Notes under the pieces: generated by a model
What the model was told of the DNA's origin: nothing
Seen by the model: the letters and a program-made list of their open reading frames with translations, nothing else
Databases searched by the model: none
Shown: positions 17,201 to 36,490 of the stretch, one piece after another
Numbering within the stretch: position 1 is the stretch's first letter
Layout: every line of letters starts with the position of its first letter
Position numbers and translations under genes: made by a program
Source: Pempheris klunzingeri
Lineage: Eukaryota > Chordata > Actinopteri > Acropomatiformes > Pempheridae
Reading direction: 5' to 3'
NCBI RefSeq assembly: GCF_042242105.1
Contig: NC_092016.1
Location: 6,185,501 to 6,249,500 of the forward strand
DNA: 64,000 bases

Positions 17201-18622
17201 GGTTTCTTATTAAAAAAAATGTTTTTGCAATATTAATGCTAGTTGTAACGCCACGTTGCCTCATTCAGACTTTTTGTTTTTCACTTTTCCTGACTGTCTT
17301 TGCTTTAAGTCTTAATTGCTAAAGCAAAGTCAGTCTTCCTCTGGTGTGTTTGTGGTTTCTCAGGTTTCGTTAAAGTCTCGTTTAAGTCAGTGCACTGTGA
17401 ACGTTTCTCTGTCGACCTGTTCTGCTATCTGCATTTAAAGGTTTTGTAAAATTGCGTCACTGTACAAACAGGTGTAATTTTTTTAAAGGAAATGATTCTG
17501 TTGTTAAAATGTGATGTAAATTTTTTTATTTAAGTAAAATCAAATCCAACACAAACAATCTCTGGTTGTTGTTTCTGTGCATTTCCTACTTTACTCCAAC
17601 ATTTTCTGATGATTAAATAGCGAGACTGTGTGAACCACAGTCCACATAAGCAGTAAATGAATCTCTTATTAAAATCTCAAATGTCAGACGTTTGTCAGTT
17701 CAATCAGTTCAAAACCAACTAGGTTCAGCATGCGGGTTAATTCTTAGTTATTCTGCGGATGAACACCTCCTTTAATGTTTCAGTCATAACATTTTACAGT
17801 CCTCCGTATCAGCAGGGAGGGTTTTTTATTACTGGCAGATGTTTCTAGTGTTCATTTATCAGCACTGAGCAACCAGCACAACCAGTAAATAATCATCCCA
17901 AAATATCATTAACACGGGGAAACTAGGTTTTCATTCCTCTCACTATTTCGAACCATGTTACTGTGTAACAGAGATGTTAACAAAATAGGGAACTTTAATT
18001 CTTCCAAAAAAGAGAAGTTTCTAGAGTTAAGGTACAGTGACAGCTGCTTCCTCTTATGTTTAAAAACATCAAACGCATGTATGCCTATACACCTGCATAC
18101 GGGAGGCTATAACATAGCTATAATATAAGCTATAATATAATAAACATACTTGAAATTAATTGATTTCAGTGAGCACGAATCAGTAAATGCACATATTTAT
18201 TTAAAAAATCTTTCTCTGATTCCCTATGATACAAGCAAGAATCTCTGGCGGTCCACAGAAACGCTGCAGCTCCTCTGCACTGGTCTCAGCAGCCTCAAAC
18301 TCCTTTTACACACAAACCTTTAATCATGTTACACTACATTAACTATGACACAGTATTTACATGAAGACCATAAAGAATAAAAGCTGCAAATGGTTAAATT
18401 CACATAAAATCTGAACCCTCACATTCAGGCTGAGGCTAATAAATTAAATGAATTGAAGTTTATAATTACTTGTTTTCACCTTTCAATGAAGAGTCCTGGT
18501 TTTATGCCAATGGTTCTCTATATTGGACTGATAAGGTCGAGTGTTGCAGAACTGACGACTGATAAATCTTTATTAGATTTTATTATGGGTGGCCATGTCT
18601 TCGTTTTTCCTTTTGATGCCTG
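14215..18622. other. gramd4 3' UTR and convergent intergenic space to cdhr5
   Basis: No coding exon is visible. The gramd4 stop is followed by long AT-rich sequence with several plus-strand AATAAA candidates (about 15644 and 16632, and a pair near 17030-17055); I cannot say which is used. An 18-bp perfect palindrome (TATATAGTGCAC then TATATA) sits at 14235-14252. On the minus strand, AATAAA-type signals near 18569-18584 lie about 40-55 nt beyond the cdhr5 stop and are good candidates for its poly(A) signal. Confidence 0.55.
15441..15486. repeat. Perfect 20-bp inverted repeat with 6-nt loop
   Basis: The left arm is 15441-15460 (ATAATTTCTGATACTACCAC). The right arm, 15467-15486, is its exact reverse complement. 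The loop is CTGCTA. It lies about 1.2 kb past the gramd4 stop, probably in its 3' UTR. The stem is shorter than a usual pre-miRNA and has no bulges. Confidence 0.85.
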
Positions 18623-21600
18623 TCACAGATCAACGGTCAATGCTTCATCACTGTCTGAGTCTTCTGCTGGATCCTCAATCTTCAGCTCGAGTCCACTGTC
18701 CAAATCTGCCTCATTAAAGGCGACTCTTTGCTTTTTTTCCTGCGGGTTGTTGTCATCATTCTCCTCTCTGGTGCTGATTGACTGCTCCTCGTCTTCCTCT
18801 TCGCTGTCATCATCTCTGCTGTCTGGGATGATGAGCACCTCCTCCTTGGCGTTGGGATCGATGTCCTCCTTAAACCAGACTGACTTGTATCCCTCGTCCA
18901 CGCGTCTCTCCTTGGTCAGGATGGGTTTCACCTCCTTGTCACTGTCCACCTTGTCTGAGCCTGCCTGGCTGTTGTCGTCACGCAGGAGGCCATGCAGTGC
19001 CACCGAAGAGGTCACGATGGGCTCTTTGAGCGGGAATTCCCTCGCTTCTCTCCATGGATCACCAGCTGCCATCACGCTTCCCCCCTCTGGACCGCCAAAG
19101 CCGACGCTGCCTTCATCTTCATCATTCTGGAAGGCGTCATTAATGTACTGGATAGCCTCCTTCTGACCGTCCAAACCTTGACCCAGCTGTGGAGGGACAT
19201 CACAGTCAGGGAGAGAAGACATCGAAAACCAGATCGACAGTTTAAAGCCCTGTTGGTGACCACTAGAGGCTGCAGTGTTCATTATATCCCACAATGTAGC
19301 ACATAGTGAAGATGCTTCCATGAAGACACTCGTGGATGTATTCAGGAGAATACAGTATTTAAACTTTGGCTCCCCATTCAGTCCTATGAAAGTTGCTTTC
19401 TGGGTTGAGAGTTGGTAAATTGTTGCCATACGGTAACAATAAACAATCATGGAAAGTACCAACATTTCTATTTTTTCTCTAAAAAATATGCTTTTATTGA
19501 AAACAAGACTAAACAAATCCAGCTCATACTTGGTATAATGTATATTTATGCAGTGAAATTAATATAATATAATATAATTAATGGCTTATAGGGTCATAAA
19601 TAGCCTAAAATGCTGCCTGCTATTCTAATTATCCACCTATCTGGACTATGCTTTATCATCACAGGGTACAGGTATTTTCCACCTGTAAACCATTTACAAT
19701 ATATTATCTTGTACGAAGAAAATGTTGTTGTTAAAGCTGACTGGGCTTATTGACAACACAAAAGTGGACCAACATATGGTTTGGATGGGATATCGTAGTG
19801 CCTCCTGTTAAAACTATGATTTACAATGATGTAATTTATAATCTAGATTATATGTTACTCTTACAAAATGTCTATAATTACAAAATATGAATAAAAATAA
19901 TGTTTTTTCCCTTTTACATGTAATTATAAGTTGTAAACATATTGTCAGAGTAGCCTAATGCTACAGGAGGTTACAAGCCTCTTAGTGGCTCACTGTCCAG
20001 CTCCAATTAAAAAAGCTGCTTTCCTAAGCAGCATAGTCACAGCTTTTTTCTAAAAGTATTTTAACTTTTTTTCCACAGAGAGTGGGCTGTTACACAGACA
20101 GGCAGCCCCACTAGGACTTCTCCCACCGTAGCAGATGGCCAGTAAACCACCGCTACTCCCCGTACTGGCCCTACCTTTGGACACTTTTGAACTTTGAACT
20201 TACAGAGTTTCTGAACATGCTGGTTTCGTAGATCTTCCTCCAATCTGCTTTGCCCCTCTGAATGCGACAGATGAGCACGCCGATGACCACCAGAGAGATG
20301 AGCAGCAGTGCACCCAGCGTTCCACCGAGCACTGCCATCTCTGTCAGCCCGTAACCACCAAGCGCTTTGGTCACTGCAGGAACAAAGGCCATTAAATACA
20401 GGTGTCACCAAAAAAACATTCAACTTTGACACTTACCTGGTGGTGAATCTTAAGAGAAGCAAATTAGGGTTTGGGACTATACAAAATAGCATGGTTTACT
20501 CAAAATGTCTCTTTTAAATTGATTTAGATTTTTAACCAGCAGAATGCTCCTCATAGGTTTCATGAAGTCAAAGAAAATCTAGCAGAAAACTTAAATTAAA
20601 GATACAGTCAAACTAACAAAGAGCAAAGCCAACAGTTCAGCTGCTACGTAAAGCCTACCCTAATTATGAAGTTTAGATTTTATACTCGACAAAGACAAGC
20701 AACCTACAGAAAAACTCTAAACCTAAGAAATGTAGGCTGTTTTTATAAGGCTAGAGTTTCTTCGACATAGTGCCAGAGTCGGTGCCAGAATAGACTCACT
20801 ACAAAGTCTCCAAACACGTCGAGGGCCTTTGTTTTTTGATGTAGTGTTCACGCCAAAGCAGTAGTCTGTGGTTGGTTGCTTTGAATGTCAACAACAAGAC
20901 GCCTTTACTAGTCAAAGGAGGCAGCCTTTGAACACAGTGTGAACTCTACCTTTCCCAGAAGGTTTGGCTTGGTTGCCGCTGCCTATAGGACAAATAAAGT
21001 GCCTTCCAGATGACCTCTGCTTCACTTGTTTTGATGATAACTCTTGTCTTAGCTTAATTTCCCTCATTTCACATGACTGAAGCTACTGAGAGAGAACTGT
21101 GACCACCTGGTTGAGCTGTGCTGGCAGTGGAGACGCTTCCGTAACTGGTTAAACTGGTGTGAGTGGTTGAAACACTGGCTTCAGTGGTCAAACTGGAGTG
21201 AGTGGTGGAGACGATGCTCTCACTGGTTGTACTGGGGATGGAGGTTGAGACGCTGCTGTGAGTGGACACACTGGGTTTGGTGGTGGATACGATCGCTTCA
21301 GTGGTCTCGCTGTTGGTGGTGGACACCCCTGTGGACGTTGTAGCCACACTGTCTGTAGTGCTCAGAGGCAAAGTGGTGGTGGTGAGACCTGGGAGGAGAG
21401 CACACTTTTATGTCCCTGCTTTCTACAAAACTTTCACCTTGATTTACAGTCGTATGAAAAAGTTTGGGCACCCCTGACAATTTCCATTATTTTCATTTCT
21501 AAATCATGAGGTGTTTGGATCAGCAATTTCATTTTGATTTATCAAATAACTGATGGACACAGTAATATTTCAGTAGTGAAATGAGTTTTATTGGATTAAC

Positions 21601-24600
21601 AGAAAATGTGCAATATGCATCAAAACAAAATTAGACAGGTGCATAAATTTGGGCACCCCAACAGAAAAATCACATCAATATTTGATAGAGCCTCCTTTTG
21701 CCAAAATAACAGCCTCTAGACGGTTCCTATAGCCCCTAATCAGTGTCTGGATTCTGGATGAAGGTATTTTCGACCATTCCTCCTTACAAAACATCTCCAG
21801 TTCAGTTCGGTTTGATGGTTGCCGAGCATGGACAGCCCGCTTCAAATCATCCCACAGATTTTCAATAATATTCAGGTCTGGGGACTGGGATGGCCATTCC
21901 AGAGCATTGTACTTGTTCCTCTGCATGAATTCCTGAGTAGATTTTGAGCAGTGTTTTGGGTCGTTGTCTTGTTGAAATATCCAGCCCCGGTGTAACTTCA
22001 ACTTTGTGACTGATTCTTGAACATTATTCTCAAGAATCTGCTGATATTGAGTGGAATTCATGCGATCCTCAACTTTAACAAGATTCCCAGTACCAGCACT
22101 GGCCACACAACCCCACAGCATGATGGAACCTCCACCAAATTTTACTGTGGGTAGCAAGTGTTTTTCTTGGAATGCTGTCTTCTTTTGCCACCATGCATAA
22201 CGCCCCTTGTTATGACCAAATAACTCAATCTTTGTTTCATCAGTCCACAGCACCTTATTCCAAAATGAAGCTGGCTTGTTCAAATGTGCTTTTGCATACC
22301 TCAAGCGACTCTGTTTGTGGCGTGTGTGCAGAAAAGGCTTCTTCCGCATCACTCTCCCATACAGCTTCTCCTTGTGCAAAGTGCGTTGAATTGTTGAACG
22401 ATGCATAGTGACACCATCTGCAGCAAGATGATGTTGTAGGTCTTTGGAGGTGGTCTGTGGGTTGTCTTTGACCATTCTCACCATCCTTCGCCTTTGCCTC
22501 TCTGATATTTTTCTTGGCCTGCCACTTCTGGCCTTAACAACAACTGTGCCTGTGGTCTTCCATTTCCTCACTATGTTCCTCACAGTGGAAACTGACAGCT
22601 GAAATCGCTGAGATAGCTTTTTGTAGCCTTCCCCTAAACCTTAACATTGAACAATCTTTGTTTTCAGGTCATTTGAGAGTTGTTTTGAGGCCCCCATGTT
22701 GCCACTCTTCAGAGGAGATTCAAAGAGAAGAACATCTTGCAATTGGCCACCTTAAATACCTTTTTCTCATGATTGGATGCACCTGTCCATGAAGTTCAAG
22801 GCTTAATGAGCTCACCAAACGAATTTTATGTTCCAATTTATCAGTGCTAAGTAGTTACAGGTATTCAAATCAGCAAAATGACAAGGGTGCCCAAATTTTT
22901 GCACAGCCTATTTTTCACATCTGATACAATTTCATACAACTTAATATTGCTACACTAAAAATCTTTGTCTGGAAAATACCCCATTACTTAGCTTTTATTA
23001 GAAAATGAATGGCATGCCACTGTGATCGTTTTCTGTGCAGACAGAGTAAATTATTATGCAGCCTCAGAGGGGTGCCTAAACTTTTTCATACGACTGTAGT
23101 TGCTGAAACCTGCCTCCAGGAGGGTTTTTGGAAACTAGCCACTATCAGCCAGTGGACCCCATGGTACCAACATGCTGTGGCTAAGATTCAGGCCTCACTA
23201 TATGCAGAAAGAGTTCCACATCATTCAGAGGGGACTCATCAAATCTAAGCGCACACAGCTACATGCTTCCAATGAATCCCACAGATGTTGTACAGCTGTG
23301 CACAATTACATAAAGGAACAGAAATCAAATCAACTATACGTGTTGGATACCTTCCCTTTGGATGCCTGTCAAAAGTTCTAATTTTCAATCTTATAATGAA
23401 GTCTAGAGAACGTCTTGTGTGCTTGGTTGTAGCTCCTTTCTTACCACCAGGGTTTCTGCATATGCCTGGTCAGTAATGCACAAAAGAAGAAGCTGATGGA
23501 TGACATCCTCTGTGTGGAACCATCAGCACTCATACTTTGCAAACTGGCTCATGGACTGATCTCAAAACACATCAGGATCTTGAAGTTAACAGATATTCAA
23601 CTCACATCACCAGAGCAAAGTAGCTTTGGGTCACACTGTGTTTGCTACTTCAGTCTGAACACAACCTAAAAAGAGCTTTCACAGCCGAACCGGCGTGGTT
23701 TAAACTAAGCCGGGTGTGTTGGCCCGTTTTGCCTGGTTCAGTGCTGCCCATCACCAAGACTGCATGAAAAGACGTTTGTCCACATCCAAGTGAAATCTGT
23801 CAAGGTTTTTTCTGTGACGTCAGAGCAACCAACCACACGACTGAAAATGTGACACAGCTGACAGGGAACAGTTGATGAAACAGTCCCAGCGAAGCTACAC
23901 TGGCACTATATTCACCCCCTGGTTTCTCTTGGTGAAATGCAGTTTCATTTCCTGAATTCATAAAAAGGTTCCTGAAAAAGTTCTCTTGTGGAAATGGGAC
24001 AGTTAAAAACTCAAAGAAGAGGATCAAGCTCTGTAGCTCAGTCTGGCTCTCGTGTTTGCATGTGTTTGTTGGTCATGGAGCACACTGGAGCACACTGGAG
24101 CACACTGGAGCCACAGGTGGAGCAGACCCGCGGGGACCGTTCAGTCTTTAGCAGAGGCCTCTGTGAAGGTTTTCTTCCTACCTGATGACACCTCCACTGA
24201 GAGCTCGGCTGTGGTTGATTCGTCATTAGATGAGTCCACTGCCACCACCTGGGAGCCATGAAATCGAGCATTTAATGAGAAATTACCCCTCAGTCACTCA
24301 TCATACGTTTTATTACAATTGTACACTCACTTGCAGAGATAATATGGATGTTGGCAGGTCTTCAACCATGAATAAGTAGCTGTCAACGATTGTGAAATCG
24401 CTGCTCCCGTTAACGTAGTAAGTGATGTGGGGATTTAAGCCCTGTTTGAAAAGAAATCAAAAGGTTAGTGCTCAGCATGAAGTAGATAGAAAACTAACAA
24501 AAGGCTTCCTCAGTCAAACACACAAAACTGATGATTATTAAGTTAAAAAATAGCCCACCATCAGTTCACCATGAAGTTGCCTTAGCCTTGAAGTGCTAGT

Positions 24601-27600
24601 TAGGAGGGTTTACCAAAAACGTTGTGTTGTGTTGAATCACTGTCCGCGTCTCAACTTTGCTGCCATTATACAAGACATTTTTTATAATGCATTTTTAAAC
24701 CACAACACCTGATGTCCACTAGAGAGAGTTGACAAAGTTGAATGGTAAAATGTTTTATCCACAAACTGTCGGATTGACTGTTCGTGTTTCTTGACATGTC
24801 ACTGTGTTCCCAGATCTCTATCCATTGATAGAAATAACGGACAAAGCTACAAAAACTAAACTAAAAACTAAATTGTGAAACACTACAATTTCTCTTATCT
24901 AATAAAAACAGATATCTGCTGTAAAGTCTCCATCCAAGTCGGGATGTTTCGTGTTGGTGACACAGTGAGGGGCGTTTTTCAAAGAGTCAAACCTCAAACA
25001 AGCAAAAAACCTCTGTTTCTGTCATGTACTAATCTGAGGAAGGTGGAATCACTGTTTTACCCCAGTGGCCATATAGTCATCATCTGTGGCGATGATCTGC
25101 AGCGGCTTGTCCTTGTTCTTTGGGTCCATCGCCATGGTGCCCACTCCAGTGACGACGGCTTCGTACTGAGGCCTCTGAAACTGCGGAGGGTGGAGACTCT
25201 TCATTTGAACACTGATTGTGACGGTGGTGGTGGCAAACTGATAACTGCTCCTCTTCTGAGCAGCCTGGGAGGAAAAAACATGTTTTTTTTTTTTTCAGGT
25301 TTGGTGATTTGCAGGTGAAATGCAGAACTGTAAATTCCCAAATTCCCTTGGAAGAGCAAACAACCAAATTTTCTGTTAATTTAAAACCTTTTCACTAGTA
25401 AATAATGAATATTTGCTCATTTCTTCTATGATATTAAACTGACAGTTGCTTTGATACAAAGCGATCTGAAGATGTGACTGCAGCTTTGTGAAGGCATTTC
25501 ATACAATTTTAGGAGATTTTATGAATGATGATTTTATTCATGGCTAAGCTGAAAAAAACAACTGACAGATTAATCAGTAATTGTAAGTTGCTGCTTTATG
25601 TCACACACACTCTCTGTCTTTTCTTTAAACCTCAGTTTCTTTATCAATTCTTCTTTGCTCCAAATTTCTGGACTCTCTGTGTTTGTGTTCACACTCCCAG
25701 TCTGTACAGTACTGTTTTATTATCGAAAGGAGAAGAAAAGTGTGTTTGAGAAAATATCAGAAGTCAGACTTAAAGAAGGTCTCAACATGTAACATAAGTG
25801 AAACACGTTTTTAGGTTTTTACAATGCTGTGTTTCTTTAAATCAAGTTACTAGAAACCCAAAAGACCATCTTAATGCAGAATTAGGCAACAACACAGATC
25901 AGGAGGTAACTCAAACACAAAGACACCATGTGTGCTGTGAAGGTTTTTGTCTTTACCAGCACTGTCAGACTGATCGTTTCCACCACGTCGGCCGGCTTCA
26001 GCATGGTGATGTTCCCCGTGCTCGGGCTGATCGCAAACAGACCACCAGCATCTCCTAAAACCCAGCCAGACTGAGCTGTTTCTGCCTGCCAGTATCAACA
26101 ACTTATTTCAGACTGAAAAAAAACCCACTGCTATCATAATCCCAGCTGCTTACCTCTCAAGAACGAGTACTCTATCTCCTCATTTATCCCTGAATCTCCG
26201 TCGATGGCATAAAGCGGTCCTGGTTTCAGTGGTAACACTCCGGTCTGCAGAGGAGAAAACACCAATATCATCGTCATCATGTGTCTGGCACAGTGGTGAA
26301 AGTCATCCTTTAGTATAAGCACAATGGAAATCAGACTGTGGAGGCTCTGTTAAGGCCTCAGCCTCAGACTAACAGTGTCTGAACATCTGACAGTTTATGT
26401 AACTTTCGGAAACCGACAACGCAACAATCAGGCATACTTTCTGCAGATGTGTTAAACTGCTCTCTTTTTTCATTCATCACACTTTGAGGAGAGACAGTGT
26501 GAAAGTGTGTGTTGTTATCCCCATTTATTCGATTCACGGTGCCAAGTTTGTGTATATATACGCATAAATACACAAGGTGTTAGAGAGAGATCAGGGAAGC
26601 AGTGGTATGCAGCCAGGAGGAAGCTTTTCAGTCCACCTTCAAATGAGGATTCTTACAACATGACAATCCAACTAGTTTGGATTTGCATTCAGTTCAGGAG
26701 GTCGCTGTTTGGCTACAGTTTGCTGGACTTTCTGGATAAAGTGCTACCACAATGGGGACATCCTACCTCTTGTTCATTTAAGACAACCCTGCCGGTGTAG
26801 CCTGTGCTCTGGCAGACCACAGTCATCCCCACCACGTACTCGGTGCAGGGCTGGAACCACGGTGGTCTATTGTCCACGTCAAGTATGTTGACCATGATGG
26901 TGGTGGTGGCAGTGACCAAATCCTTGCTATCCGCCGATACCAATGGCGTGTTCTTAAAAACACAAAAAAACACCATCAGGATCTGAGTCAGTAAAACATA
27001 GATCAAGTATATCAGTCAGCAGAGGTCTGTGAAACTGAAACGGTCAAGAACACTTTGACATGCAGACAGAAGGAGGTGAATTCACTGAGCATGCCATTGA
27101 GTTGGAAGAAAGAAATGAGTGTTCAGAACCAGCAGTGAGCAGCACTCACCTGAGCTGTCAATATCAGTTGGACAGTTTGGACTTTATCATATTCGAGATG
27201 TGCATTGACAAGGATTTCCGGGTTGGTAGGCGTCAGCAGTTTAAAGCTGTCCTGTAGAAATCAAAGAGGACAATTGAGCTAATAGTTTCCTACTGCTTCC
27301 AGTCTTAAATTAAATTAAATTGTAAATTAATCTGACACTGATGCTCCAGAAGACAAATAACTAGAGGATTTATCTACATGTTGGGAGCAAAATAAACACG
27401 AGGGCTTACAGATTCAGGTGTCGTCAGTGTGTAGTAGATCTGATCCATGTCTAAGTCTGTGGCGGTGAAGCGGCCCACACTTGTGCCTACAGGAGACATC
27501 TGGGACAAATGGTACAAACAGCCAGTGGTTTGAAATATTAACATGAAACAGTTTTCTACAGTGCAATGTATTGTTAACTGAAGCAACCTTCACAGACCTA

Positions 27601-30600
27601 GCTGACCCTATACTACAAGGTTCCTATTCAGACTCTACATGACCAAAAGTATGTGGACATCGGAATATTGCAGCCATACAGTATGTGTTATCTGAACATG
27701 AGACTCCAAAACCGTGGGCATTAATCTGCAGCTAAAACAGCCTCCACTCTTCTGGTTCAAGCCTTGCTCCAGATTTTAGAAGGTGGCTGCAGGTATTTGC
27801 CTCCATGCAGCCACAAGAGTATAAATGAGGTGACACTGGGTGATGAGGTCTGACTCCCAAAGTTGTGTGGATGGGGCTGAGATCAGGGCTCTGTTACGGT
27901 GGAACTGAGAGCTCAACGTGCAACAACTTAAGAAAACAGACACAGTTAGATAAAACACTGTAGCCAAATTAAGAAAACATCTTCATCACTTTTACAACAC
28001 ATGCACTGCATTTACACATTACACATTACAGACACATGCTGCAATTACATGTGACTAAAGTACGTCACATGGACGCTTAAAAGTGTGTTGTGGCTAATGT
28101 GATGTATTGTTTGTATGTGCATGACGTTTTTGAAATGCTGCACATGTATTGTCATGTTGATGAAGATGTCTTTTTAATTTGCCTTTTTACGCATGTTTTC
28201 TTAAATTGCAGAGCGCTGAGTCCTTGGGGCCACTGTACTCTGTTCAGGCCAGTCAAATTCCTCCACACCAAACTAGGAAAACCACTTCTTTATCGACCTG
28301 GCATTTTAATGTTGAAACAGGAAAAGGCCAAACACAAACTGTTAACACAAAGATGGAAGCACTCTACAGTCTAAAATATGATTGTATGCTCATATCTTTT
28401 TTCACTTGAAACAAATCAAAATAGGCTGCAGGCATAAGGTACATGGGCATGGTGTCTACAGACTTTTGGTCATATAGTGCACTTAAGCTCCAAAGCAACA
28501 TTTAGAGTATCTGTATTAAAACAGGAGATAATACTGCAAATACATTATTTCAGAGAAACAAACATACACACAAAGAAATACACAAAAAATAGGTTGCAAT
28601 GATGAACAATAATTCCTGATTTATTAAAAGGTATCAGACTCTTACCTCATCGACACTGGTATAGTAGATGTCCTGATTAAAGAAGGGAGCGTTATCGTTC
28701 ACATTGGTCACCAATACAATAATGTTGAGGCCCTCCTGGAAACAAAGAGGCACAATCCTTTCTCAAACGATTTTGCTATTGATTTTAGATTATGTGTTTT
28801 TTCAACTATTATTACATTTCTACTACAACTTCTGATTAACATATGACGGAAACATTAAGAATATGAAACCAAAGACACACATCTCTGACATCCATCTGCC
28901 ATCCTTGAACTGTAGAACCTGACTCTGAAAAGTTATGATGCAGAGATTTTTTTTAATCTACAGATTGATTAAAAATATAACCCGTACAACCTCTTCAAGA
29001 GCAAGTATAACCTCTTCAAACAGACTTAACAACTTTCTCAAACACCTGGAGAACCCCTTCAAGCACCCATATAAGCTTCCAAAGCATCCGTAGATCCTCC
29101 TGAGGCATTTGGAGAACCTCAAAAAGAGGCTGCACAGCACACTCAAGAATGTGCAAAACGTCTTTGAGCACCTATCCAACCTTCTCAAGAAGCTGCACGT
29201 CCTTGTCGAGCGCCTGGAGAATCCGCTTTAGCACTTTTTACAACCTCTTTAAACAGAGAATCTCATCAAGACCACCCTTGAAGCATTTGTAGAAACCAGC
29301 ACAGGCCTCTCAAGCATCTGTTGAACCTCCTCAAGAACCTGCACAATCATTCATTTCTGTCTGACATTTAGATTGAGTGCTTCACTGTGGGATATCATCA
29401 CACTCATTCATCCAGTCAAACAAGCACTGTGCTGTCTTAAGACAAAAAAAATCACTGTTCTTGTAGTAGGTTGACTTCAACAAAGAGTAAAGAATTAAAA
29501 GTTAAAATTAGCACAATGCAGATTTCACCTGTCTCAGTTTAACATGTTTAGTGAAAGAAGACAGTTTTACCGTGCGGTTTGTCGCTGTCTCAGTGCAGAT
29601 GATCTTGGCCACGTGATTTGGTTTATTCTGGAAACACAACACACTTCATGTTCAGCAGTCAGGTATTTTCTCACAGACTAGTGTCCTAACTGAGACGTGG
29701 GTGTGGATCTGGTTGGTGCCAGTAGACAAGACTTACAGTACCTCATAGTCCAACACCCTTGCAGCTATCAGTTGGTGTCCCATAAGCCTGAATGGGTTGT
29801 CTGGGTTGTCAGGGGGAGGTTTGAAATCAAGGACTATGCCTGGTTGGACATTGATCGTTACAACGACTGCATCCACCAAGTTGTTTTCTGCAAAGTCCAC
29901 ACTTTGAGGCGCAGTACAGACTGTTGGGGGAGAAGAGGAAGGCAGCTGTCACAATTATAGAGGCATGTGTCCAGTACAGATATCAAAGTCTTAGCTCAAA
30001 AACATGGAAAACTTTACAACTTATTTACATACATACAAACAGGTGCACACCCAGTATGTACTGAGGCAAATTCAGTACACTGAAAATAAACTATAACTAA
30101 AATATAACTAATATAAACAAATAAACTAAATATAACTATTATACAATCAAATGCATGAAATGAAACAGAGGAAAAATAGAAACAAAAGTGTGTGTAAGTT
30201 CAAATATAATGTCAATCTGACAGGAGTGGGGGAGTTACACTATACTTTAGTCTTAAATGTTTTTCTTTATTTCACTGCATATAAGATTAGTTTTGAAAGT
30301 ACTGTGGCCTCCAAATTTCTTATATTTTGCACGACTGCGTCTCCTACTTTCCTTCACTAGTCAGTGGAGTTCCAATAATATTTGATAGATGCTCCCTTTC
30401 TGCAACAGCTTGATTTTGACTTATTCAATTCATTTTAGTTTCAGTAAGGACAGAGCAACTGAACAAAGCAGTGAGTTATAGTGTGAAACTAACTTCTTAC
30501 AACATAGCAGCTAGTGTTGACTTACACTTAACAACAAATGATCACAATTTTAGCAGGTTTAGCTGCTGCAACAGACTGCTTGTTAATAAACAAAATTATA

Positions 30601-31047
30601 GATCAATTGATAATATAAATAATCATAGTTTGAAATCCTAAATTGAGCGCTTATTGTAAATATCTCCACCCCTCTTCTCTCTGGCTTCCACATACACAGT
30701 TTCCACACACTTTCCACTGCGCTCTTTCAATGCCAGACTGCTTCTTGTTTCAGTCACCTGACCGCTCCCTCGGGTTTCATTCCACTTGTACATTATTCAT
30801 CGAAAGTGTACACACTGTAAAAACAGTTAGACCTGGGTTTGTCTGTACCACATGCAGCAGGTAGCAGACTGTTACCCAGCCTATTATTTTCTATAAGCAC
30901 CATCAGTCAGACAACACAAACGAGCCTCAGGTGAACTAGCAGATTTCAGTACTCACAGCGCTGGGCATCAGTGGACGTTTGAAGCAGAATCAGAAATAAC
31001 AAGCTGAAGTACGTCCTCACAGTGAAGTGTGGTTGAATCCCGGCCAT
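18623..31047 (-). CDS. cdhr5: Cadherin-related family member 5 (mucin and cadherin-like), 16 exons
   Basis: Exons 5'->3': 30957-31047, 29742-29920, 29571-29627, 28646-28735, 27410-27499, 27150-27251, 26767-26952, 26154-26244, 25957-26054, 25061-25264, 24331-24441, 24182-24248, 21107-21388, 20950-20982, 20204-20373, 18623-19186. All phases join, giving 804 residues (human about 845). Residues 1-29 are a signal peptide (FSLLFLILLQTSTDA). Four cadherin repeats follow to about residue 455; the EC1/EC2 linker is canonical (VNDNAPFF), the later ones are weaker (DVDNRPPWF, MKSLHPPQF). Residues 456-549 are a Ser/Thr-rich mucin-like stretch (SVSTTHSSLTTEASVSTTHT). The membrane helix is about 574-596. 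The tail is acidic and ends TVDL, a possible PDZ ligand. Known role: CDHR5 pairs with CDHR2 at microvillus tips in the intermicrovillar adhesion complex of intestine and kidney brush borders. Assignment rests on this domain order and on the neighbourhood. The 33-nt exon is predicted from splice signals and phase only. Confidence 0.85.
21447..23096 (-). mobile_element. Tc1/mariner-type transposon with TA target duplication
   Basis: Terminal inverted repeats of about 30 bp begin CAGTCGTATGAAAAAGTTTG on both strands, with one visible mismatch (GGGCACCCC versus AGGCACCCC). Each end is flanked by TA (21445-21446 and 23097-23098). The length is 1,650 bp. It carries one transposase reading frame on the minus strand. 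It sits in intron 12 of cdhr5 in the same orientation as that gene. Its near edge is about 58 nt upstream of the acceptor of the mucin exon. The well-matched ends and almost open frame suggest a fairly recent insertion. Confidence 0.95.
21675..22697 (-). pseudogene. Tc1-like transposase, one nonsense codon
   Basis: From the ATG at 22697 (MGASKQLSNDLKTKIVQ) to the stop at 21675 the frame is 340 codons, the normal length for a Tc1 transposase. One TAA at 22643-22641 breaks it at codon 19. An uninterrupted 302-residue frame begins at 22583. The helix-turn-helix region contains KWKTTGTVVVKARSGRPRKIS. The DDE catalytic motif is intact: WTDETKIELFG, FQQDNDPKHCS and SPDLNIIENLW (the D, D and E residues are present). 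The product would cut and paste the surrounding element. With the nonsense codon it is probably inactive unless translation starts at a later Met, which would cost part of the DNA-binding domain. Confidence 0.9.
24078..24110. repeat. Short tandem repeat, three 10-bp units
   Basis: CACACTGGAG occurs three times exactly, in intron 12 of cdhr5, about 70 nt from the end of the exon at 24182-24248. No function is evident. Confidence 0.8.
27634..28482 (-). mobile_element. Decayed Tc1-like element in cdhr5 intron 4
   Basis: The left end reads ATGACCAAAAGTATGTGGAC. The right end, read in reverse, is TATGACCAAAAGTCTGTAGA. These are matching terminal inverted repeats. The interior (about 27720-27900 and 28240-28370) resembles the reverse strand of a Tc1-type transposase gene common in fish, but it is full of breaks. 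A stretch of about 340 bp in the middle (27900-28240) does not fit and may be a second insertion. Confidence 0.6.
28980..29345. repeat. Degenerate minisatellite in cdhr5 intron 3
   Basis: Variants of a unit of roughly 27-32 bp, such as ACCTCTTCAAGCACC, recur with changes about a dozen times (CCTCTTCAAGAGC, CCCCTTCAAGCACC, CTCCTCAAGAACC). The open minus-strand frame at 28958-29188 is a by-product of this repetition, not a gene. Confidence 0.7.
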
Positions 31048-31084
31048 GTCTATGCCTGTCCTGTCTGAACTGATGCTTGTCTGT

Positions 31085-31120
31085 CTCTGTTCTCTGCTTA
31101 TCTGCTTTGGTTTTATGGCT
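31085..31120 (-). promoter_or_regulatory. Putative cdhr5 core promoter (TATA/CDX-like and GATA)
   Basis: Read on the minus strand, CCATAAAACC at about 31109-31118 is a TATA-like box, and its complement GGTTTTATGG contains the CDX core TTTATGG. AGATAAG at 31103-31097 fits a GATA site, and CAAAG lies between them. The box is about 65 nt from the start codon, leaving room for a short 5' UTR. This fits an intestinal gene but is inferred from the sequence alone. Confidence 0.5.
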
Positions 31121-33059
31121 ACAGTGGACTTTTCCCTGTCATTAAACGTCTGTTTGCTGGGAAGTCATATAGGTTTCTTTTTGTGACTAGCTGTCTTTTA
31201 CTTGATTAGTTTGACCTGAGTCATGTCATGGTTGTAGGTTTACACGTTTACAGACGTGGAAAGAACTGATCAACATTTTCTTATAAATCATCTAATGTCT
31301 TCATATTAGCATGTTGCTGACTGAATAATTCACGTGTCCTGTTCTCCATTTATGGCTGACAAAATCATACAATGTGGGTAGTATTGCGTCTCTCTAATTT
31401 CCTCTGTCTCGATGGCCAGGTGATGTGGTCGGTCACTTTTACACTGATTTGTCACCTTACACTTTAGCCTCTATCTTTATCGTTCATCGTGTTGACAGCT
31501 AACAGTCAAGTTATGCTGCAGTTATTTTTGTAACTGCATATAAACCTCTGCTGGGTCAGGGATGCATTTTGGCCTTGTAGCTCTTCTGTTATAAGGGTTA
31601 GGGTTAGCAAAAAGTCAACCCTACCCGTGGACACCAGTGAAAATTGCATCATTGCTCTGCTGTTAAGCTACTCAATGAAACTCAGTACTTCCTGCAAATG
31701 TTTGACATGAAAAGCATACCCAGAAAGGGAGGGATTCTGCTGCAGAGCTGTTGAAAATAATATGTCAGTATATACAGTTTTCAACATTTACAGAAGTGTT
31801 GTGGGTGTTGTAAGATTTTTGGGAAAAAAAGAAATCATCATCTGCATATAAAGAAATGTTGATGTGTCTTTGACATTTAAAGTGACGAGTTTTGTTGGTT
31901 ATTAACAATTATTCATGCCAACGTCCAGACTGGCATCCATCACAGTGTAGCCCCCCTTATTCATAGAAGTGCACTACTCTGTTGTCAGTGCTGATACATA
32001 GTCATCCAGCAAAGAGTTGCACTGGCCTATGAAACACCCATGCATACTAAGGGTTCTTGTTTTTAGTAACATGTCTTGATCTCTGCTGACTTTATCTGGT
32101 TGTATGATTATAAAAAGAACGTTATTTGAATATTATTGTAAGAAATCTTGTACAAAGTGTTGTTTCACTAATTCAGCAGTATTTCTTGTGTCGTGGACAC
32201 ACTTGTGTGCATGTCATGAATAACTATTACTCTAACTATAACTAAACAGTACTAATTATCTTAAGCTTTAACTATAATATGCTGCGACACAACTTTCTTT
32301 TCTTTCTTTCGGCTAATGGTTTAAAGGAGAGTACAAGTTAAAGGTGAGACCGGGAAGCCCTGTTGTTCACCTCAGGATGTAGAGGAAGAGGTAGAGCGTA
32401 TTTCTGATAACAAAACATAATTGTTGGTATGGTAAAATGTTAATAGATTTATCCTCAAATCCCATGATACTAAACAGCAAAGATGCAAACATTCAAGCCT
32501 ACCTACCTGCGTCTATATCTAGATACATTAAATGGACACATTGGTACTACATTTATTCCCTGGTTCCTCTGGTTGAACACAGGTTTAGTTCCTGAATTTC
32601 TGAAAGGGATTTTTGTCACGGGATTGGCTCCAGCTCCCCCGCGACCCTGATGGATAAGTGGTATAGATGATTGATGGATGGATGGATGGATCCATGACTT
32701 TTTCTCTAGTGCCACCCTCTGGACAAAAATTGGTCTTAGATTTCAAGCATCATTTAAAATATCAATGCATCTGAATGGTAAGCTTTTACTGTCTTCAATA
32801 ACTCTTTTAATATCCACCCATTAAACTGAATGTACTGAAATGGTGTGGGCAAATGTGAAATGCTCCATACACATATAGAAAACACAACATCCCCAAGGTA
32901 CTTCATAAAACTTATTTTAATAAGAAAGATATCGGTTTCCAGATTAAATATGACAACAACTGCATATAAAGCGCTTCACTTAGAACATCAGTAACATGTT
33001 CGTCCTTCCAACGTCAAACTTGTTTCTCTCTTTCTCTTTCTGTCTCAGCCAAGTGTCTT
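31121..33059. other. Intergenic DNA between cdhr5 and the secreted-peptide gene
   Basis: About 1.9 kb with no supported exon. It includes a probable LINE 3' end at about 32630-32692. A TCTAG(C/T)GCCACCCTCTGG block at about 32705-32722 recurs at about 9846-9863 in gramd4 intron 13. The spacing is compact, like that between the human CDHR5 and SCT genes. Confidence 0.6.
32630..32692 (+). repeat. LINE-like 3' tail with GGAT repeats
   Basis: GATTGGCTCCAGCTCCCCCG, then GACCCTGATGGATAAG, then several ATGG units. This is the typical 3' end of a fish non-LTR retrotransposon copy. The 5' part is not recognisable. Confidence 0.6.
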
Positions 33060-35208
33060 CTACAGGTCGGTTGGCCAGTTGTTGTGGACAGACGGACACA
33101 TGTACTGTTTCAGCAGCAGGTTCACCCTCTCCAGGTCTCCTCCCACCCCACTGTGGATAAAAACACAGTGACGATTAAACAATGCTGAAGAGGAAAGTGA
33201 TTCTGTCATTGTAACTCACATCATGACGGCATATTTTCTCAGTTATAACATGTTTTTCTCATTACTACAACATTACCAACTTACATGCATGGCAAGAAAA
33301 AGGATTAACCAACTGGAAGGTTTTTATTGTGAATAACAAGATCAGTTACCAGAATAAGAAAACAATGATACAGTAAAACAAAAAAAGAAAGCAGATGGGT
33401 GATTGGTGGACTATTGTTCTTCTGAATGAATTAAAAAGCTGTACTGTGGAAATATATATATACGGTTGATGTAATGTGTATCACTGGTGTTATAATGTGT
33501 ATCGCTGTTGTTATAATGTGCCTGAAGTCTCACACCTCTGCTTGACGCTCTGCATGCGCCGCAGGAAGGCGCAGATGGAGCTGTGTTTGGCTTTGGATCG
33601 CAGGAATTCTGCGTATCTGTTGGAGAACTCGATGTCTCCCAGCTGCCTCCTGCGGTCCAGACCCGCGGACAGCAGCTGCCTGAAACACAATCACATCAAA
33701 AATGGTACCAATACGGATCAGCATACACATACATCAGGTTATTGATGCACTTTGATTTATCTATCAAAGTGCTTTAAACTCTGGTGGAGATCCCAATGTT
33801 TCTAAAGATGTTAAACTTGTCAGGCTGAATTTTAGAGAGATGTGTGTGAAATCATCATCATTGTCATCATCATGCACACTAGACGTATATTTATAGATGG
33901 AACGCGGCCGCGAATATTTCACACTGTAGAAACATCATAAAGCTTTAATGTAGAGCTGCAACAACATGATTCAGAATATATGTAAGACAGAGTGGAGAAG
34001 TATCTTTTCTTTTCTCAATTCATATGAAGGTAAACCTGCAATTACAGATTTTTTGGCCACATGGAGGCAACGGAAAGAAGTTATGAAAAGAACATTTGAC
34101 ATATCGACTTGGTACGGTGCAAACATTTGCATACCTACACATCCATCAGTTGCAGAGCAGCATTGTCTTTTATCTGGAGTCGTGTCATTCTGTCCATGTG
34201 ATGAATGTCAGACCAATATTTTCACTCTTTTAGCTCTGTTTTTGGTCTCTACCAACTCCTGAGGGAAATACTCTTAATCTGCGAAATGCTCCAGTGTGTT
34301 CACCAGCTAGTCTCTTAACTGTGTCTGTCTGCTGTTTGGTGCTGAACAGGTGTATAGTGGGTTTTTAGGTCTTTTTCTGGTGAAAGTGAACCAAAACAAT
34401 AGATTTGTGGGCTGGACAGCTAAACAATGAGCAGGAACTCACTATAAAGCCCCATAAAGCCAAAGGGAGCAGCAGATTCACTCACTGTTTTCATATTGTC
34501 ATTTGATACATTATTATAAGAACATTTATTATAACCACTTTTAGGGATAATTTAAACCTTCACAATGTAGCATTTGTATCTACAAGAGCTACAAACTCCA
34601 CCGGGCAGATTAATATTCTTAATATTGATATTAATATTCTCAACCAAAAAGTCTAAACGTTTTATTTGTTTTTCCTTGTTTTTAGTGTTAAGTCACCTGA
34701 GTCTGGCCTCGAGCAGAGCGTCTTCAGAGTTAATCCCCGACAGAGACCACGGTGCATTCAGGAGTCTGACCTGAGTCAGGTAACTCTCCACTTCATCTTC
34801 ATCCCTGTGGTCACATGACATGGAGATGCACAACTTTTCAACAAATACAAAGAACAATATCAGAAATACATCAGTCTCTTCTTCCTCCAGGATACAAAAT
34901 TGTACAGAGAACGTATGAGTCTGAACTAAAGGAAGAAATCGTTCCTATTTTTTTTTTTAAACCAGCTGTTCAGTGTTCAGTGTTCAGTGTTCAGTGTTCA
35001 GTGTGGAGTGTGGAGTGCGTTATTGTATTTAGAAGAATCAGAGAGGGTTTTCTTTGGCAGAGGTTTGACTAATTCATTCTTTTTCAGGGGCGAATGAGAT
35101 TTTGGACTTTTCAGCATTGTCTGTTGATAATTACCTGACAGGGAGTGATGTGGTGAGGTGGAGGAGGGCAAAGAGCAGGAACACCTGGGTCACACTGATT
35201 GATGGCAT
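33060..35208 (-). CDS. Secreted prohormone-like protein, 138 residues; candidate secretin-like gene
   Basis: Coding exons 5'->3': 35135-35208, 34697-34804, 33536-33679, 33060-33150. All junctions have GT/AG and phases join. Met1 begins a clear signal peptide (VFLLFALLHLTTSLPV). Residues 70-72 are RRR and 101-102 are RR; between them is a 28-residue segment starting QLGDIEFSNRYAEFL. Only two Cys exist, one in that segment (SSICAFL) and one near the end (YMCPSVHNNWPTDL). The layout fits a peptide-hormone precursor. Secretin-family peptides carry Asp, Phe, Thr/Ser and Tyr/Leu at positions 3, 6, 7 and 10, and D-x-x-F-S-x-x-Y here has that spacing. Position 1 His and a Gly for amidation are missing. 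Alternatively ARLRQLLSAGL, just before RRR, resembles the C-terminal half of secretin (ARLQRLLQGL). The gene lies directly upstream of cdhr5 on its strand, as human SCT does. I am confident of a secreted-protein gene and only moderately of its kinship. Confidence 0.7.
34967..35003. repeat. (TGTTCAG)n tandem repeat
   Basis: Five 7-bp units followed by related GTGTGGA units, in an intron of the secreted-peptide gene between coding exons 1 and 2. Confidence 0.85.
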
Positions 35209-35384
35209 CGTGAGGATGATGAAGACGAGGATGATGATTTCCTGTGGAGACAGGAGACAAGTACATGTCGTATTGGTCTGGATCTGTTTTTCCTCATTTG
35301 TTCTTGGCTGTTAAACCAAAATCGTAATGCTTCAGCATGAAATTATATTCTCAACAATAGTATCTAACTTTGTAGCAGTAGTTT

Positions 35385-35580
35385 GTGTTTGTCCCTCTCC
35401 AGTTTCAACACGACAGTGGCCCCTGTGCACAAAGCCAGCTCCACAAAGAAATGTGTGGAGTTTTGTGCGGAGGCACCTGACTGGCCTGCACAAACCTCTG
35501 ACCTCAACTCAATCCAACACCTTTAGGATGAACTGAAACGCTAACTTGGAGCCAGAACTCATCACCAAACAGCAGTGTTA
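35385..35580 (+). mobile_element. Tc1-like transposase relic
   Basis: The stretch translates roughly as SDLNSIQHL-stop-DEL, a decayed form of the Tc1 motif around the catalytic Glu (PDLNPIEHLWDEL in live copies). It is preceded by remnants of the region before that motif. It lies in the 5' intron of the secreted-peptide gene and appears to belong to the same family as the relic at 27634-28482. Confidence 0.6.
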
Positions 35581-36415
35581 TACCTGGGTAATGCTCTCGT
35601 GGCTGAATGGGTGCAAATCCCTGCAGCTTTGGAATATGAAGTTTTGAAAAGAAAGTTTTGTACATTTTTACATTAAAATGTGGCCCCGTGAAGTCTCGTC
35701 TGAAAGCTTGTGTGTTCAGGTGTGTGCTTGCAGGTGTACTTGTTGTAATTAAGTTGTAAGTCTTCCGCCTTTCAGGGCAATATCCCAGTCAAGAGAACTA
35801 CAAATCCAAACAGGTATAGATGCCTCACATCAGCCATATTTCATTGTATGTAAACCCAAATTTAATAGATGTGTTTTAACCGTAACATGACACATGACAA
35901 GTCTGGAATCATAAAACTGTCTCGCAAACCGGTAACACAGAAATCTTTGCCATCCCTTCCATACTTCTCATATGACAAGAAAGCAACATAAGCTACATTA
36001 TTCAGTCAGTCGTGATAAACACCAGCATGGAGATTTAGCGCTTGTAAAGACTGAATGCTCAAACTTGTCTCAAAATGTGACCTGCACGAGGTTACAGAGA
36101 CAATGCTCATGTACAAGATTCTAAAACTAAAATTACTGCCACAGAACTGTATTTTCCATTACACTGTTTTAACCGATACATTTTACCATTGGTTATTAAA
36201 GTCAGCCACATCATTTTAAAACCTCATCAACATAATGAGATGCTAATATGTTAACAATTCTGAGTGTGATAATCAACCTGAAAGTTCACAGAAAACACAA
36301 GAGATACTAATAATATGAACATATTACACATTATATATACGACATTATCTCATCATATCCATATATCATATATCATATCCAACACTGTCTCCAGTTGATG
36401 TATGAAGAGACTCAC

Positions 36416-36490
36416 CTGAACAGAGACCAGACCGGATCGGACCTGCAGACTGGCTGTTAGGGTCCGGGCTGCCTCCTTTTGTACCCCATT
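36416..36490 (-). promoter_or_regulatory. Putative TATA-like promoter and non-coding first exon of the secreted-peptide gene
   Basis: On the minus strand TACAAAAGG at 36483-36475 is a TATA-like box. A transcript starting about 30 nt downstream (near 36450) would end its first exon at 36416 with the donor TTCAG|GTGAGT. The next exon would begin after the acceptor TCTCCACAG near 35240 and reach the start codon at 35208. An in-frame ATG exists at about 36494 but lies upstream of the TATA-like box, so I prefer the start at 35208. Confidence 0.5.

Follow-up and report, generated by a model that had tools for sequence, protein, structure and literature searches.

A secretin gene that has very probably lost secretin and kept a second peptide of the same precursor in the percomorph fish Pempheris klunzingeri

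The word hormone was first applied to secretin, and what became of this peptide in teleost fishes is the question raised by the locus described here. The locus lies in a 64,000-nucleotide stretch of the Pempheris klunzingeri genome (the window; contig NC_092016.1, positions 6,185,501 to 6,249,500 of the forward strand, assembly GCF_042242105.1), where a minus-strand gene situated next to the cadherin-related gene cdhr5 encodes a small secreted precursor. A first-pass annotation made from the letters alone had read this gene as a relic or diverged ortholog of the secretin gene (sct). Our analyses indicate that it is, with high probability, the sct ortholog of a percomorph teleost in which the secretin peptide has eroded and a second peptide has been kept.

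Scripted splicing of the four coding exons (Table 1) gave an open frame of 138 amino acids with a signal-peptide-like N-terminal stretch (residues 1 to ~22-24, judged by eye) and three internal junctions, all phase 2 and GT-AG. The four-exon secreted protein with consistent phases proposed by the first-pass annotation is thus confirmed by splicing and by homologs, and its product contains RRR (residues 70-72), RR (101-102), the segment QLGDIEFSNRYAEFLRSKAKHSSICAFL (73-100) with its D-x-x-F-S-x-x-Y motif, EARLRQLLSAGL, and MCPSVHN. A likely noncoding exon 1, with its donor after 36416, would be joined to the acceptor at 35241, the Maylandia gene model P0011 having the identical SVQ/EIII join, and a TATA-like TACAAAA starts at 36483, upstream of this probable exon. 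A first homolog search yielded 61 proteins, all but one of which have E <= 1.7e-11; the rows that name an organism are teleosts, and the top 15 cover the full window protein at 79-91% identity. With so many strong and full-length matches, the gene is not a chance reading.

Its link to secretin comes from sturgeons and paddlefish. A profile search with the teleost proteins (83 proteins returned, only the 7995 best-matching candidates being scored) reached the sturgeon protein P0075 at E = 6.4e-24, so that the profile search suggested for the 138-residue protein ended in a connection to a secretin-bearing precursor. Residues 33-60 of P0075 match Pfam Hormone_2 (E = 2.5e-11), and the best PDB matches of its first peptide are a PACAP chain (E = 0.0032) and a secretin chain (E = 0.014). 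A third search, with P0075 as the query, returned seven proteins and added those of paddlefish and sterlet (P0088 and P0089), both of which bear the name "VIP peptides-like" and, in Pfam, the label Hormone_2. All three chondrostean precursors consist of a signal peptide, HADGLFTSELSKLRGSLSARNYVKALL (or near it), GAKR or GARR, a short linker, and QLGDIEFTNKYADYLKSKAKLHKITSLLKHMQNIKR; that is, the sturgeon and paddlefish homologs have a second peptide, QLGDIEFTNKYADYLKSKAKLHKITSLL, after a textbook secretin. The precursors of gar, elephant shark, chicken, frog, and human lay outside the reach of the three homolog searches.

The position of the gene agrees with this assignment. In human, SCT lies immediately 5' of CDHR5 (synonym MUCDHL) on the same strand, and here cdhr5 adjoins the window gene on the same strand. 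The gene order in human and chicken is given in PMC2880984. Three teleost rows (P0012, P0030, and P0031) are named in UniRef after the "Glucagon / GIP / secretin / VIP" group. Other models go by the names "cadherin-related family member 5-like," "Growth hormone," or "VIP peptides-like," so that a name search misses the family.

What has worn away is secretin itself, which is encoded in exon 3. Compared with sturgeon secretin, the window remnant has H1->E, D3->E, G4->S, and F6->L, only T7 being kept; the Arg before His1 has become D, the K-R after the hormone has become R-L, and GAKR is gone. The His1, Asp3, Gly4, and Phe6 of a functional secretin are therefore missing from peptide 1, as are its flanking cleavage sites. 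Erosion is graded from sturgeon through eel (SLVARNYVEDLLDD) and salmonids (ARNYVDALVEAR) to percomorphs (DALLEARL), and the secretin-family score of the eroded stretch is p = 0.42 in the window, 0.07 in eel, and 0.04 in salmonids. Mean pairwise identity among 27 teleost rows is 0.36 in the remnant and 0.38 in the signal peptide. The resemblance noted earlier between EARLRQLLSAGL and the C-terminal half of mammalian secretin (human ARLQRLLQGL) turns out to be due to chance, because EARL aligns on the former G-A-K-R cleavage site and RQLLSAGL on the linker. A prohormone at the secretin locus that is orthologous to secretin and has lost the classical hormone, as first proposed, is accordingly borne out by the P0075 homology, the cdhr5 neighborhood, and the decay of exon 3. 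In five otophysan rows (characins, knifefish, and catfishes), the secretin remnant itself contains Cys: P0065, P0070, and P0071 each have a CRRC pair, P0069 has a CSRC pair and a third Cys, and P0067 has just one. An extra disulfide is possible where there are two.

The second peptide has been conserved. The same 27 teleost rows average a pairwise identity of 0.80 over peptide 2 and 0.76 over tail residues 115-128, and over residues 73-100 the teleost rows average 63% identity to Acipenser sinensis. The underlying alignment comprises the window protein and 29 of the 89 homologs (fragments, near-duplicates, and some others were omitted by choice), two of its gene models being cut at an inner start. 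When compared with a profile built from eleven peptides of the secretin family, two of them the sturgeon secretins, peptide 2 scored p = 0.0008 in sturgeon, 0.005 in otophysans, 0.026 in eel, and 0.036 in the window (20,000 shuffles), all four in a single gapless register with an extra Gln in front. A profile-profile comparison gave the same register, with a score that was equaled by 1 of 300 column shuffles for the chondrosteans and by 2 of 300 for all 30 rows. The core pattern D3, F6, T/S7, and Y10 and the hydrophobic C-terminal part are present. Judged by sequence, peptide 2 is thus probably a divergent member of the secretin family. In the Alosa alosa protein P0044, an apparent partial tandem copy of the peptide 2 start, QLDNTEFYDRYA, stands directly before RQLGDIEFSNRYA.

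Both the gene family, to which the window gene adds a member, and the main idea have been published before. In zebrafish, Morash et al. (PLoS Biol, Dec 2025, PMC12714231) report sct, in synteny with human, shark, and gar, and they align orthologs of fugu, razorfish, and gar. They describe high expression in one enteroendocrine cluster with ccka and pyroglutamate (pGlu) peptides recovered by mass spectrometry from a region conserved in fishes, and they suggest that one of the two peptides survived in mammals and the other in fishes. In the literature searched, the zebrafish gene name occurs in that paper alone. The statement that secretin is absent from teleosts, repeated in the first-pass annotation, reflects the view of papers from 2010-2011 (PMC2880984 and PMC3084839), which that work has overturned. 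Sturgeon, paddlefish, Acipenser, and Polyodon are not mentioned in the main text of PMC12714231, where "cysteine" does not occur and "disulfide" appears in one reference title only. The corrected register of the two peptides and the cysteine pairing discussed below were not found in the literature consulted, the main text of that paper included.

Several observations weigh against a secretin-family peptide 2 or a fully extinct peptide 1. Position 1 of the family register is Leu, neither His nor Tyr, and is preceded by the extra Gln in 30 of 30 aligned rows, so that peptide 2 has no His1 and begins a residue early; the window copy also lacks an amidation Gly, and its own score is just p = 0.036. 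HHalign assigned peptide 2 to the family with a probability of 40% for the chondrosteans and 25% for all rows. Searched against PDB, peptide 2 alone returned noise and no secretin-family chain, and the teleost profile likewise returned no secretin-family chain. Pfam Hormone_2 had no match in 10 of 10 teleost sequences tested (the window and nine others), the window protein itself giving a sub-threshold Pfam match only and nothing useful in PDB. An AlphaFold prediction from 31 sequences (P0001 first) speaks for the family reading in leaving the N terminus of peptide 2 free ahead of one helix at 77-105 (a further helix lies at 116-126), but it has a predicted template modeling score (pTM) of 0.31 and a mean predicted local distance difference test (pLDDT) score of just 64. 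Finally, the region aligned with secretin likewise gives rise to peptides in zebrafish (main text of PMC12714231) and may hence not be wholly silent.

These points give most room to the explanation that peptide 2 is an unrelated conserved propeptide segment that happens to follow secretin and acts on a receptor type of its own. The missing His1, the additional N-terminal Gln, the lack of a PDB or Pfam match for the peptide, and the modest HHalign values would all fit. We nevertheless consider it unlikely, given the gapless register at D3, F6, T/S7, Y10, A18, and L27 (read from the peptides), the sturgeon score and the rarity of equally good shuffles, and a tandem position typical of the secretin family. 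Far less probable is the original reading of the 28-residue segment as diverged secretin itself, which drew on the D-x-x-F-S-x-x-Y spacing and to which the gapless family-profile fit of the window peptide would lend some weight. That reading is refuted by the three chondrostean orthologs, in which a full secretin lies upstream and a closely similar copy of the segment downstream. The motif recognized in the segment is present, and the segment is the second peptide, not secretin.

Two further explanations concern the protein as a whole, and we give neither much credence. It might be a small helical cytokine or growth-hormone-like factor, since four rows (P0002, P0014, P0019, and P0044) bear the UniRef name "Growth hormone" and several helices are predicted; this is very improbable, as Pfam on the 10 teleost rows gave nothing or sub-threshold matches and no cytokine or hormone fold, the chondrostean orthologs carry Hormone_2, the pTM is low, and the zebrafish product is processed into peptides (main text of PMC12714231). 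Still harder to sustain is a decaying pseudogene kept by position only. The secretin segment has indeed decayed, but the frame and splice sites are intact, peptide 2 and the tail are 80% and 76% conserved in the 27 teleost rows, and both expression and peptides are reported for zebrafish in the same text.

Arg-Gln marks the start of peptide 2 in all 80 matched homologs, out of 89. The preceding basic residues are RRR in 49 of 73 parsed rows and a lone Arg right before the Gln in 22 of the 24 others, with 17 of 90 rows unparsed and several of the parsed rows being genomic frames that run into an intron. Whether the two dibasic sites that follow peptide 2 trade off against each other was tested, and no such claim is made: at least one is kept in 71 of the 73 parsed rows, and about 70 would be expected by independence.

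All 76 non-chondrostean homologs with a visible site (one more being unreadable) have a Cys in peptide 2, at a position where the 3 chondrosteans all have a Thr. The tail Cys occurs in each of the 55 non-chondrostean rows with an alignable tail and in each of the 3 chondrosteans. Another 22 of the 80 matched rows gave no reading at the tail site; 21 of these end early or enter an intron or another frame, and 1 is a cod model (P0078) with YRR where its relative P0074 has YRCP. MCPSVHN, first taken as the counterpart of the Cys in the human C-peptide, aligns instead with sturgeon FICHAVN. The Cys of the mammalian C-peptide would more probably correspond to the second sturgeon Cys (DLCLLWFQQNLL), which has no counterpart in the teleost rows. 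Because residues 97 and 127 are the only two Cys of the window precursor, a disulfide may join peptide 2 to the tail. The gain of the peptide 2 Cys is one event on the tree and has no statistical weight as covariation. Since the zebrafish samples were reduced and alkylated (main text of PMC12714231), the published mass spectrometry would have been blind to such a bond. We tentatively propose that teleosts swapped hormones within one precursor and re-engineered the survivor, which may act as a two-segment hormone; we hold this combined scenario to be doubtful.

The following history would account for these data. The ancestral sct precursor would have had two tandem secretin-family peptides, secretin first, as in PRP/PACAP and PHI/VIP. 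The sturgeon and paddlefish sequences retain both, the family status of the second being probable and not certain. In the teleost sequences, peptide 1 has become spacer, with His1, the greater part of the central motif, and the flanking cleavage sites gone, and peptide 2 is kept under strong constraint. In endocrine cells of the gut, cleavage after Arg72 would most likely free peptide 2, which would be capped as pyroglutamate (we infer that the window Gln start is the same Gln as that of the zebrafish pGlu peptides) and cut at RR 101-102. Largely helical, it could serve as a ligand for a class B1 receptor, possibly of the VPAC/PAC1 type, or for another receptor. The locus would then be one where the sct gene stayed, secretin wore away, and its sister peptide remained under constraint, with the chondrostean precursors, two of three of which are filed as "VIP peptides-like," representing the intermediate state.

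The window gene lies about 2 kb 5' of cdhr5 on the same strand, as the first-pass annotation had stated: the cdhr5-like protein P0087 (Antennarius) matches downstream window exons at 26913-24189 (tblastn), and the distance rests on a putative cdhr5 signal-peptide exon near 31.1 kb read by eye. A mucin-like stretch and a transmembrane segment were also recognized in cdhr5 by eye. The minus-strand frame 18626-19558 looks by eye like its cytoplasmic exon and ends in LTVDL, which may bind PDZ domains; its one Pfam match stayed below threshold, and the plus-strand frame 18408-19163 is its shadow. Inside cdhr5 lies a Tc1/mariner-type transposase open reading frame (ORF; 21678-22640, minus; HTH_Tnp_Tc3_2, E = 1.6e-21; DDE_3, E = 1.6e-14). 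The P0087 model ends with the last sct exon (window 33137-33063) behind its cdhr5 exons, so that cdhr5 and sct are linked in Antennarius too, in an order reversed relative to the window; Antennarius may accordingly have a rearrangement at this place or another cdhr5-like copy. As P0087 begins with cdhr5 and ends with the sct exon, it does not confirm the gene order of the window. Neither Rfam nor tRNA scans of the window gave a match.

Upstream of the window gene, Pfam identified a DAGK_cat gene (~47 kb), presumably of the ceramide-kinase type, and a ZP gene (61-63 kb). On the other side, plus-strand exons at ~6-15 kb gave one weak, sub-threshold GRAM match (E = 0.0086). These exons may represent gramd4, and they and the DAGK_cat gene (42-58 kb, minus) flank the cdhr5-sct pair. 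The gene gramd4 and a ceramide-kinase-type gene adjoin each other on human chromosome 22, so the cdhr5-sct pair may sit within another gene block in P. klunzingeri. In human and chicken, the order runs MUCDHL, DRD4, DEAF1, and onward, and in fugu MUCDHL and DRD4 share one scaffold, where SCT was "proposed to be absent" (text of PMC2880984). Among the window ORFs read by eye drd4 was not noticed, no search aimed at it having been made.

Table 1. Features of the sct locus in the window (all positions counted from the first letter of the window)
Feature	Positions	Strand	Basis or detail
Probable noncoding first exon	36416..36460	-	Donor CAG/GTGAG, last exon base 36416; upper limit a guess
Exon 2: 5' untranslated region, start codon 35208, signal peptide	35135..35241	-	Acceptor 35241; coding 35208-35135; donor GTAATT
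Exon 3: eroded secretin hormone (coding 34804-34697)	34697..34804	-	Splicing; aligned against chondrostean secretin (sturgeon, paddlefish)
Exon 4: linker QLLSAGLDRRR, second peptide QLGDIEFSNRYAEFLRSKAKHSSICAFL (residues 73-100), RRMQSVKQ (coding 33679-33536)	33536..33679	-	Splicing; conservation
Exon 5: tail, conserved helix and Cys, VNLLLKQYMCP, stop (coding 33150-33060)	33060..33150	-	Splicing; conservation; predicted helix on P0001
Possible poly(A) signal ATTAAA	32916..32921	-	~140 bases 3' of the stop
cdhr5, neighbor gene	18626..31164	-	tblastn of P0087, ORFs; outer limits by eye

Among known systems, the closest is zebrafish sct (si:zfos-2372e4.1, ENSDARG00000099233), likewise a syntenic secreted precursor with limited homology in the secretin region and a conserved pGlu region (main text of PMC12714231); it belongs to another species, and the match to the window gene runs via the otophysan rows, of which Astyanax P0081 shares the gene name. 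The sturgeon and paddlefish precursors (P0075, P0088, and P0089) share the signal peptide, peptide 2, and tail Cys with the window gene and differ in having a full secretin, a longer tail with a second Cys, and a Thr in peptide 2 for the teleost Cys. Mammalian SCT resembles it in lying beside CDHR5 (MUCDHL in the text of PMC2880984) and in its ancestral precursor; there, peptide 1 was kept and peptide 2 is believed lost, whereas the window gene shows the reverse, an idea put forward in PMC12714231. The chicken SCT/SCT-LP precursor also has two peptides in one sct product, both of which stimulate chicken SCTR in cultured cells (Wang et al. 2012, as cited in the main text of PMC12714231). PRP/PACAP and PHI/VIP are similar in carrying two family peptides per precursor on separate exons (in part from PMC2880984). 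PACAP and VIP are, however, second peptides that have His1 and are the best-conserved members of the family, whereas in the window gene the first peptide is eroded and the second is without His1.

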